A stretch of 64,000 bases of DNA from Armatimonadetes bacterium Uphvl-Ar1 (lineage in GTDB: Bacteria > Armatimonadota > Fimbriimonadia > Fimbriimonadales > Fimbriimonadaceae): positions 1,302,001 through 1,366,000 of the forward strand of contig CP021423.1 in the NCBI GenBank assembly GCA_002162075.1. The letters are read 5' to 3'. Numbering within the stretch: the first letter of the stretch is position 1; each line of letters opens with the position of its first letter. Position numbers and translations under genes: made by a program. Shown in pieces: positions 51,687-54,456 of this stretch. Below the pieces are notes generated by a model, which had not been told where the DNA came from, made no database searches, and worked only from the letters and a program-made list of their open reading frames with translations.

Positions 51687-52558
51687 TCAGACCCCGCCGC
51701 GAAAGTCCACCGGTCGCAAATAATACTCATTGATCGACGTCACACTCGTCATTGCGACCGTGGGCAACTTCCGCTTCCAATGCGTTCCTGAGACCTTCCG
51801 CATGACCAAATCAACATCCCGCTCTGAATACCCAAACGCCATGACCTGATCCCTCTGGTAACCACGCATCAACAACACCAATATCTCGTCCGCCAGAGCA
51901 TAGGTAATTCCAAAATCCCCTTCATCGGTCTGTCCCTCAATCAAATCCGCCGTCGGCGGCTTGTCACAGATCACATCCGGCACCCCCAAATACCGGGCCA
52001 ACTCAAAAACCTGAGTCTTGAACAAATCCCCAAAGGATTGATCGGCGGCGCATCATCTCCATGCCAAGTGTAATAGCCAAACATCCGCTCCGTCTTATTT
52101 CCCGTCCCGAGAGGCATGGCGCTGTCCCGCGCCCCCAAATCATAAAGCACAATCATCCGACTCCGAGCGCAAACATTCCCCAACCGATACGGCGTCATCG
52201 CGACTTCCCCAATATCTCCAAAACCATCCACCATCGCGGAAATGTCAATCGTCGTTGCCTTAACCCCCAGGTCATCAACCACCAATTGCGCATGGTCAAG
52301 CGAAGCCTGCGAACTCTTCCGGTAAGGCATCCTCACCGCCAAAACATTTTCCGGCCCCAATGCCCGCGCCGCCAAGTAGCAAGTCACCGCCGAATCAATT
52401 CCCCCGCTCAGCCCCAGAACCCCGCGAGTCATCCCCCGCTGAACCACAAGTTCCTCACGCAAAAACTCAACCAAAAACTCCGCCAACAACGACGGCTCAA
52501 TATCAAGCAAAGCCCGAGCCGGACTTTCGTTCAATCCCCGCACCACTGGCAAAGCCAT
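51687..52558 (-). pseudogene. nadE: NH3-dependent NAD+ synthetase NadE, reading frame broken by one missing base
   Basis: Two frames together give a complete NadE. The first (from ATG 52558) carries VLGLSGGIDSAV (PP-loop SGGIDS), KATTIDISAMV, NVCARSRMIVLYDL and ends in-frame in GDDAPPINPLG; the second continues LFKTQVFELARYLGVPDVICDKPPTADLIEGQTDE and ADEILVLLMRGY. They join if one G is added to the G run (CCCC on the plus strand, 52028-52031), restoring PPINPLGDLFKTQ. NadE makes NAD from deamido-NAD and ammonia and is usually essential, so a sequencing error or a second gene elsewhere is likely. There is no glutaminase domain. The two pieces overlap between 51971 and 52025. Confidence 0.85.
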
Positions 52559-53215: not shown

Positions 53216-53345
53216 CCCATCAACACTTTACAGAGAATTCCCACAATTTACAATCCCATAACACGACATTTCCTAGTAGGCACCTCGGCACCCACGGAAA
53301 CAAAGCGACCGACACCAACGTTATACAGACTAGAAAAATCCCAAT

Positions 53346-53433
53346 CAGAGGGGAGTAGCACCCGTAAAACGGGGATGAGAGTCGTCAAGACGAGCCACAA
53401 GCTCCGGCTCTCATCGCAAACGCAAGACCTCTG
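53346..53433 (+). ncRNA. yybP-ykoY manganese riboswitch aptamer
   Basis: The RNA matches the yybP-ykoY family: a 5' GGGGAGTAGC, a small hairpin (CCCGT-aaa-ACGGG), a P2 stem ATGAGAG (53375-53381) with CTCTCAT (53408-53414) enclosing GTCGTCAAGACGAG...CCGG, then GCAAACGCAAGACCTCTG. The outer stem P1 is CAGAGG (53346-53351) with CCTCTG (53428-53433). Mn2+ binds the junction where GGGGAGTAGC and CGCAAACGCAAGACC meet. The 3' P1 strand also forms part of the terminator at 53424-53461, so metal binding should favour read-through into htpX. A TATACA box at 53322 may be the promoter -10. Confidence 0.92.
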
Positions 53434-53463
53434 GCAGTAATCAACCTGCCAGGGGTCTTTTCG
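53424..53463 (+). terminator. Riboswitch-controlled intrinsic terminator
   Basis: AAGACCTCTGGCAG (53424-53437) pairs with CTGCCAGGGGTCTT (53446-53459): 14 bp with one G-T, followed by a T-rich run. It shares CCTCTG with P1 of the manganese riboswitch, so the two structures exclude each other, and it ends 19 nt before the htpX start. Confidence 0.9.
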
Positions 53464-53481
53464 TTAAAAAAGAAAACCAAA

Positions 53482-54456
53482 ATGAACGCGCTGAAAGTAA
53501 CCGTCCTCCTCGCCGGACTCACCGGACTCTTTGTCCTTATGGGTAACGCCATCGGTGGAACCTCCGGAATGGTCATTGCCTTCGCCATCGCCGTCGTCAT
53601 GAACGTCGGTGCCTACTGGTTTAGCGACAAACTGGCAATCAAAATGTCCCGCGCCGTCGAAGTCTCTCCGCAGCAAGCTCCCGACCTGCACCGCATGGTC
53701 GAAGTCCTCGCCGAGCGCGCAGAAATCCCCAAGCCCAAGGTCTATATCGTCAACGACCCCAGCCCCAACGCGTTTGCCACTGGTCGCAACCCCGCAAACG
53801 CTGCCGTTGCTGTCAACACTGGACTCATGAATCTCCTCACGCCCGATGAAGTCTTTGGTGTTGTCGCTCACGAAATCGCCCACATCAAAAATCGCGACAC
53901 CCTCACGATGACCGTCGTCGCAACCATCGCTGGTGCCATCACAATGCTCGCCCAATTCGCCCAAATTGCCGCAATCTTTGGAGGTGTTGGTCGCTCGGAC
54001 GACGGTGATGGCCCCAACCCCATCGGTCTTCTCATCATGGCCTTTGTCGCCCCGTTCGCCGCCATGATCATGCAACTTGCCGTGTCCCGCGCCCGTGAAT
54101 TCGAAGCCGACAAGTGGGGTGCTAAATTCGCCGGAACTCCTGATGGCCTCAGCAATGCCCTCCTCAAATTGGAGCGAGGCACCACCGTCATCCCGACTCG
54201 AACCGACCCGGCCCACGCCCCGCTCTATATCGTCAACCCCCTCAAAGGCCACGGCGGATTCAGCAAACTCTTCATGACCCACCCCCGATCGAAGAACGCG
54301 TCGCCAAACTCCGCGCTCTGTGAGGAAGAGGGTCATAGGTTACTTTCTAAGCACCGACGGATATTGTCCAGGCTGGCCAATAAAGGGTGTCAGCTCCCTC
54401 CCCTGATGGGAGGGGAAGGGGTGGGGAGACACTTCAAAAGAAATAGGCTGCGATGA
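53482..54456 (+). CDS. htpX: HtpX-type M48 membrane metalloprotease, C-terminus altered by one missing base
   Basis: The observed frame encodes 324 residues. It has two N-terminal membrane helices, NDPSPNAFATGRNPANAAVAV, the zinc motif VVAHEIAHIKNRD, two further membrane segments and SRAREFEADKWGAKFAG with the third zinc ligand, ending in GGFSKLFMTHP, after which the reading becomes meaningless. Adding one C to CCCCC at 54282-54286 restores HPPIEERVAKLRAL and a stop at 54323, the usual HtpX end (about 280 residues). HtpX degrades misfolded membrane proteins. It lies 48 bp after the manganese aptamer, and a terminator in between controls it. Confidence 0.88.
   Translation: MNALKVTVLLAGLTGLFVLMGNAIGGTSGMVIAFAIAVVMNVGAYWFSDKLAIKMSRAVEVSPQQAPDLHRMVEVLAERAEIPKPKVYIVNDPSPNAFATGRNPANAAVAVNTGLMNLLTPDEVFGVVAHEIAHIKNRDTLTMTVVATIAGAITMLAQFAQIAAIFGGVGRSDDGDGPNPIGLLIMAFVAPFAAMIMQLAVSRAREFEADKWGAKFAGTPDGLSNALLKLERGTTVIPTRTDPAHAPLYIVNPLKGHGGFSKLFMTHPRSKNASPNSALCEEEGHRLLSKHRRILSRLANKGCQLPPLMGGEGVGRHFKRNRLR
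54394..54430 (+). repeat. Palindrome plus G-quadruplex repeat, copy B
   Basis: Shares CCCTCCCCTGATGGG, AGGGGAAGGGGTGGGGAGA with copy A at 27365, differing by one G; four G3/G4 runs at 54408-54427. It lies downstream of the corrected htpX stop. Confidence 0.85.

Follow-up and report, generated by a model that had tools for sequence, protein, structure and literature searches.

A candidate manganese riboswitch of the yybP-ykoY class in front of the membrane protease gene htpX in Armatimonadota and other phyla

The leader of htpX in Armatimonadetes bacterium Uphvl-Ar1 contains a complete yybP-ykoY (Mn2+) aptamer, which, judged from its sequence and conservation, probably turns on transcription of this membrane protease gene at high intracellular Mn2+. 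The locus was analysed within a window of 64,000 nucleotides (contig CP021423.1, positions 1,302,001 to 1,366,000 of the forward strand), to which all coordinates refer. Assignment of the leader to the yybP-ykoY class is supported by comparative evidence. The arrangement of aptamer and htpX recurs across phyla with the cis position kept, which bears out a preliminary description of the window that had named htpX as the direct target.

Aptamer, terminator and gene at the htpX locus

Folded alone, the aptamer was predicted to form the succession P1-P2-P3-P4 (Table 1). All elements named in the preliminary description were located, and the 130-nt leader folded with -56.7 kcal/mol compared with -32.6 kcal/mol for shuffled sequences (z -6.8), in agreement with the view that the aptamer fits the class at every conserved part. 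One label had to be corrected, as the arm with GTCGTCA...CCGG, formerly called P2, is actually P3 with its loop L3. The L1 feature of the yybP-ykoY class, GGGGAGUAGC, is present at 53350-53359, and G53353 matches, by our own mapping of the numbering, the Mn-contacting G9 of Lactococcus lactis (contacts from PMC9190785). The block GCAAACGCAAGACC lies at 53416-53429. Within the four-way junction, P1 to P3 are present and covarying, whereas P4 comprises 2 bp here compared with 5 bp, covarying, in other phyla.

Table 1. Features of the htpX leader and gene in window coordinates
Feature	Position	Strand	Evidence
Candidate sigma-70-type promoter, TTTACA-16-TACAAT	53227..53254	+	Consensus 10/12; chance expectation 0.2; weak evidence
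yybP-ykoY (Mn2+) aptamer, four-helix junction P1-P4	53346..53433	+	RF00080 30.7 bits, R1 89.6 bits, R2 31.7 bits
P1 5' strand CAGAGG, partner 53428-53433	53346..53351	+	Direct sequence; covariation on A4
GGGGAGTAGC, last two P1 bases and loop L1	53350..53359	+	Invariant in A4 and A6
P2 hairpin CCCG/CGGG	53361..53373	+	Double-sided changes in 3/5 pairs
P3 arm GATGAGAG/CTCTCATC, with L3 TCGTCA (53382-53387), distal stem GAGC/GCTC and CCGG (53404-53407)	53374..53415	+	Double-sided changes in 8/8 P3 pairs
Adenine equivalent to L. lactis A41 (N7 binds Mn2+)	53387..53387	+	A in 28/28 htpX leaders of A4 and A6
Minimal P4, GCAAACGC, 2 bp	53416..53423	+	Predicted in the isolated aptamer
Intrinsic terminator, 14-bp stem (53424-53437 with 53446-53459), 8-nt loop, then TTCGTT	53424..53459	+	Fold; overlap with P1 3' strand conserved
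P1 3' strand CCTCTG, switching strand, common to the terminator	53428..53433	+	Mutually exclusive pairings in constrained folds
htpX, M48 membrane zinc metalloprotease	53482..54323	+	PF01435 132 bits; NCBIfam HtpX up to 348 bits
HEIAH (HEXXH) catalytic metal-binding motif of HtpX	53869..53883	+	Direct sequence

In L. lactis, the Mn site is formed by L1 and L3 phosphates together with N7 of A41 (PMC9190785). Since the equivalent of this adenine, again by our own mapping of the numbers, is invariant in the aligned htpX leaders, Mn2+ is the likely ligand of the htpX aptamer by homology. Some yybP variants are expected to have changed metal specificity, which would explain odd targets (Sherlock and Breaker, PMC7266159), and E. 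coli alx and htpX are both listed as base-induced (PMC1626474). The aptamer could thus have drifted to another divalent ion or a pH signal, with htpX answering a different stress, but this is improbable in view of the conservation of L1, L3 and the A41 equivalent in the 28 leaders and of the sister aptamers that precede Mn exporter families.

As the preliminary description had noted, the 3' strand of P1 also belongs to a 14-bp terminator. This overlap, with U's following the terminator, is kept in 27 of 31 htpX leaders of the window's phylum and in 19 of 20 leaders elsewhere, hence in 46 of 51 in total. When the full leader was folded, the terminator state was 14 kcal/mol stabler than the P1 state (-56.3 vs -42.2), which fits a switch that is OFF by default and has to be rescued by metal during transcription. 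The terminator went undetected in a simple scan, probably since two of the T's are taken up in the stem, and the shortness of the U tract counts against a functional switch. In L. lactis, stabilisation of P1.1 by Mn2+ blocks the terminator, which constitutes a proven switch (PMC11087558). The htpX leader shares this architecture and would accordingly be switched in the ON direction as well; the design of a metal-ON transcription switch, already suggested for the window, is supported by the covariation of the aptamer and by the terminator overlap. In the absence of metal, the nascent RNA would fold into the strong terminator at 53424-53459, keeping htpX off. Mn2+ would dock L1 onto L3 and stabilise P1, and the stabilised P1 would withhold the switching strand from the terminator, permitting read-through into htpX.

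The ATG of htpX is located 48 nt past the end of the aptamer, and its stop codon TGA occupies 54321-54323. The encoded protein has an M48 domain (PF01435) with HEXXH. All top NCBIfam matches are HtpX; the best score, 347.8 of the 422 bits of the equivalog cut-off, was obtained on a copy that is frameshifted at its C-terminal end. Near 54280, a C run has lost one base, which puts the last htpX codons, up to the TGA, in another frame, and htpX of the congener G006 (98% identity) is intact at this run. The neighbouring NAD synthase gene (51687-52558, minus strand) is broken into two frames that overlap (profile positions 5-152 and 154-242). Together, the two disruptions suggest indel errors in the assembly. 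The gene 3' of htpX is convergent, leaving htpX to stand alone. Searches of the window genome with RF00080, R1 and R2 (see below) revealed no other credible aptamer, so that the protease would be the sole output; we count this point, and the C-terminal frameshift in this assembly, against the proposed function.

Covariance models and covariation

The preliminary description anticipated an Infernal score above the gathering cut-off of RF00080, which is 45 bits in Rfam release 15. The aptamer did not reach it (Table 1): at gathering thresholds, cmscan listed a tRNA (tRNA-Leu according to ARAGORN) as the only match in the window. At a relaxed threshold, RF00080 matched across the full model length with an E-value of 4.6e-7 in a 221-base search and of 1.5e-6 for the whole genome, this being the sole credible RF00080 match in 2.99 Mb. 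As controls we used mntP and alx of E. coli K-12, two established Mn riboswitch genes. Both fail the cut-off too, mntP with 41.6 bits and alx with no match at E 0.01. Likewise, none of 20 htpX leaders drawn from several phyla passed it, and the 291 Armatimonadota genomes yielded no match above it. Since proven members and htpX leaders fail alike, the cut-off does not decide membership. Among other weak matches on the leader, those to mir-462, His_leader and DUF2815 were regarded as chance; a weak match to SSRC10, which has the L1/L3/GACC motifs as well and seems to be the same aptamer, was set aside.

Two covariance models were constructed from htpX leaders. Alignment A4, with 14 leaders of Armatimonadota, gave model R1, the score of which for the window aptamer is that of a member of its training set. 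Alignment A6, with 14 leaders from phyla other than that of the window, gave model R2, whose training set contains neither the window aptamer nor alx or mntP. R2 recognised the window aptamer (E 1.4e-6), alx (40.5 bits, E 4e-9) and mntP (18.5 bits), demonstrating mutual recognition between a model of htpX leaders and proven yybP-ykoY members. Aptamer subtypes were modelled apart because a MAFFT alignment of mixed subtypes (A2) was too poor for a model.

Both alignments support the predicted helices. With P1, P2, P3 and the distal stem imposed on A4, 88.6% of cells are paired and 16 of 22 pairs display double-sided changes, the covariation score being 0.57, whereas shuffles gave 0.21 and slid controls no more than 0.13. 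A6 covaries independently, with double-sided changes in 17 of 22 pairs. In A4 as in A6, these changes exceed those in every one of 500 shuffles and in the slid controls. This covariation, together with the recurrence described below, indicates that the aptamer is conserved upstream of htpX in relatives; the preliminary description would have been contradicted by conservation of the terminator alone, which is not what was found. A score under the Rfam cut-off and a short U tract could also be read as chance resemblance, or as an aptamer that has decayed and lost its switching. Such a reading is highly improbable, given the covariation, the z-score of the fold, the presence of the pair in 32 genomes and the conservation of the aptamer in the congeners G006, G007 and G002 despite sequence drift.

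Distribution and gene neighbourhood of aptamer-htpX loci

In G006, G007 and G002 the aptamer lies upstream of htpX, its motifs kept and its stems altered in compensating fashion. It is absent upstream of htpX in the congeners G003 and G005. A DNA similarity search of 60 relatives, which is too strict for an RNA, found only G006. The Alx-type locus of G003, and that of G004, carries an aptamer, and thus the placement of the switch varies within one genus between htpX and an exporter operon. TerC genes exist in the window genome; no aptamer was found at the TerC loci examined in G000, G006, G002 and G007.

A survey of Armatimonadota with R1 detected 100 aptamers in 85 of 291 genomes, most of the genomes surveyed being metagenome bins. 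The first downstream gene was classed by tblastn, and the flanks of about 130 htpX places and of the aptamers were included. Roughly one third of the distinct aptamers (31 of 98) have htpX as the first gene, a fraction that leans towards htpX since R1, like R2, was trained on htpX leaders. The 31 cases consist of 26 identified by tblastn and 5 fetched as htpX upstream regions, and the 98 aptamers include a few matched by RF00080 only. The pair was observed in 32 genomes from 18 genera and 6 families of the phylum, set against a rough chance expectation of about 0.006. Of the 130 htpX genes inspected in Armatimonadota, about 100 lack the aptamer; as in G003 and G005, this shows that the link is recurrent, not obligatory. 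The other first genes encode a small Zn-ribbon protein (24, usually followed by TerC/Alx), TerC (23) and, for the remainder, CaCA exchangers, GDT1/UPF0016, a P-type ATPase and rarer proteins.

In many Armatimonadota cases htpX is itself the first gene of an exporter operon. The order aptamer-htpX-Zn ribbon-TerC was found in eight loci (L036, L042, L043, L046, L051, L056, L162, L168) and aptamer-htpX-P-type ATPase in three (L033, L037, L049), the partner families being Zn_ribbon_TFIIB, TerC, GDT1 and E1-E2 ATPase by Pfam. In Nitrospirota, htpX is followed by GDT1, a P-type ATPase or a Zn ribbon. These operons bear on the idea that HtpX itself uses Mn2+ and that the riboswitch restricts its synthesis to conditions in which Mn2+ can be supplied. 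M48 enzymes are metalloproteases, and the HEIAH motif is present, yet we consider this quite improbable: HtpX is described as zinc dependent, ON switches of the yybP-ykoY class answer to excess and not to sufficiency, and the operons carry exporters.

Several further gene arrangements were recorded. Between the aptamer and TerC/Alx, the first gene usually encodes the small Zn_ribbon_TFIIB protein (PF13453; L192, L194, L198 and about 20 others), which is also found 3' of htpX in mixed operons. A gene for an FtsH-family protease (AAA and M41) is situated close behind aptamer-htpX in two Nitrospirota loci (L269, L270), which may place two membrane proteases together under Mn control in a single operon. 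Another unexpected target class is beta-carbonic anhydrase (PF00484), directly preceded by the aptamer at L210 (in G004, of the window's own genus), L324, L325, L326, L327, L337 and L338, and recurrent in the Nitrospirota-type phylum. The aptamer was also found before a ribosome hibernation factor gene (S30AE/HPF, PF02482) at L209 and L223 and, in single or few cases judged by eye, before look-alikes of TolC-type outer membrane, universal stress and CBS-domain proteins at L207, L212, L224, L200 and L222.

Beyond the phylum survey, a pattern consisting of the aptamer and an HtpX-like start was scanned over 84,980 species. The scan returned 39 loci, most of which encode HtpX with HEXXH; as the pattern favours HtpX-like starts, this measures presence and not frequency. 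Aptamer-htpX loci were present in Nitrospirota, Bacillota (Propionispora; CTSoil_075), Sumerlaeota, a Thermodesulfobacteriota bin and Armatimonadota. R2 was also run on 246 evenly sampled genomes of the Nitrospirota-type phylum; it matched in 42 of them, and htpX was the first gene behind 17 of 53 matches, a fraction biased upward by the training of R2. One contig recorded as Methanoregulaceae archaeon SJ84 (L246) has the gene order and size (469815) of an Armatimonadota-type contig (G018:C8), and its archaeal record name is probably wrong.

Proposed role of HtpX and comparison with known systems

The physiological role of HtpX is poorly defined, and control by this leader would provide the protease with a concrete inducing signal. 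HtpX would accompany or replace the Mn exporters that yybP-ykoY controls elsewhere, and would remove membrane proteins that are damaged, mis-metallated or made harmful by excess Mn, the proposed harmful substrates being jammed export clients and Mn-permeable importers. In our judgement, the case for such a clean-up during Mn excess is evenly balanced. Published work links membrane proteolysis to Mn: in Bacillus subtilis, YqgP and FtsH break down MgtE, an importer permeable to Mn, when Mn is in excess, and the cell is thereby protected (PMC7231995), and the TerC protein MeeF co-purifies with HtpX, FtsH and the translocon, FtsH being essential in cells without TerC proteins (PMC10550928). In combination with the exporter operons, these reports make clean-up or transporter turnover the most economical reading, and they render the rationale of Mn damage or mis-metallation more plausible, not proven.

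The same observations can be read more narrowly, with HtpX as a dedicated regulator whose substrates are particular metal transporters, either Mn-permeable importers or surplus TerC/P-type exporters, at high Mn2+. The occurrence of htpX in operons with exporters, the degradation of MgtE by YqgP/FtsH (PMC7231995) and the co-purification of HtpX with MeeF (PMC10550928) are all in line with this. However, B. subtilis employs a different protease for MgtE, htpX is alone in the window genome and its substrates here are putative, which leaves a dedicated transporter degrader somewhat unlikely. In its broader form, the clean-up proposal holds that several phyla devote HtpX proteolysis, under RNA control, to Mn2+ detoxification and couple it to exporters of the TerC, GDT1 or P-type families, and that this has escaped notice since the aptamer subtype falls below the current Rfam cut-off. 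We would lean neither for nor against this proposal.

The known regulons of the very common yybP-ykoY riboswitch are described as cation transporters, and reviews and surveys list mainly transporters and membrane proteins as its targets (PMC7266159, PMC2211319, PMC3766115). A recurrent protease target departs from this picture. In the open literature apart from the founding 2015 surveys (Dambach, Price), yybP-ykoY, ykoY or TerC was found together with HtpX only in the co-purification paper and in unrelated lists. The riboswitch class is known; compared with the literature covered, what is new is the recurrence of a protease as target and the compact form of this subtype. The presence of a protease in exporter operons would mean that excess Mn2+ harms or misregulates membrane proteins enough to select coupled proteolysis, and suggests that bacteria also respond to manganese excess by clearing membrane proteins, an aspect so far overlooked. 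Annotation based on RF00080 will miss many Mn riboswitches and whole regulons, as the gathering score finds none of these leaders.

The htpX leader can be compared with four known systems. The TerC (MeeF/MeeY) secretosome of B. subtilis likewise links TerC to the membrane proteases HtpX and FtsH (PMC10550928), although that link is physical and genetic, and no riboswitch on htpX was reported there. The action of YqgP-FtsH on MgtE is also membrane proteolysis answering Mn excess (PMC7231995); in contrast to the htpX leader, the Mn sensor there is not an RNA but a domain of the rhomboid protease, and the protease belongs to another family. The alx and mntP riboswitches of E. coli are of the same class, and alx was found by a model made from htpX leaders only. 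Their targets, unlike htpX, are exporters, and mntP is controlled at translation and by Rho (PMC11647493). The yoaB riboswitch of L. lactis differs in that its target is a Mn exporter and not a membrane protease, and P4 is cut to 2 bp in the htpX leader; it has in common the L1/L3 motifs, the Mn-binding adenine, a P1.1 3' strand that forms the terminator, and the ON logic (PMC11087558, PMC9190785).
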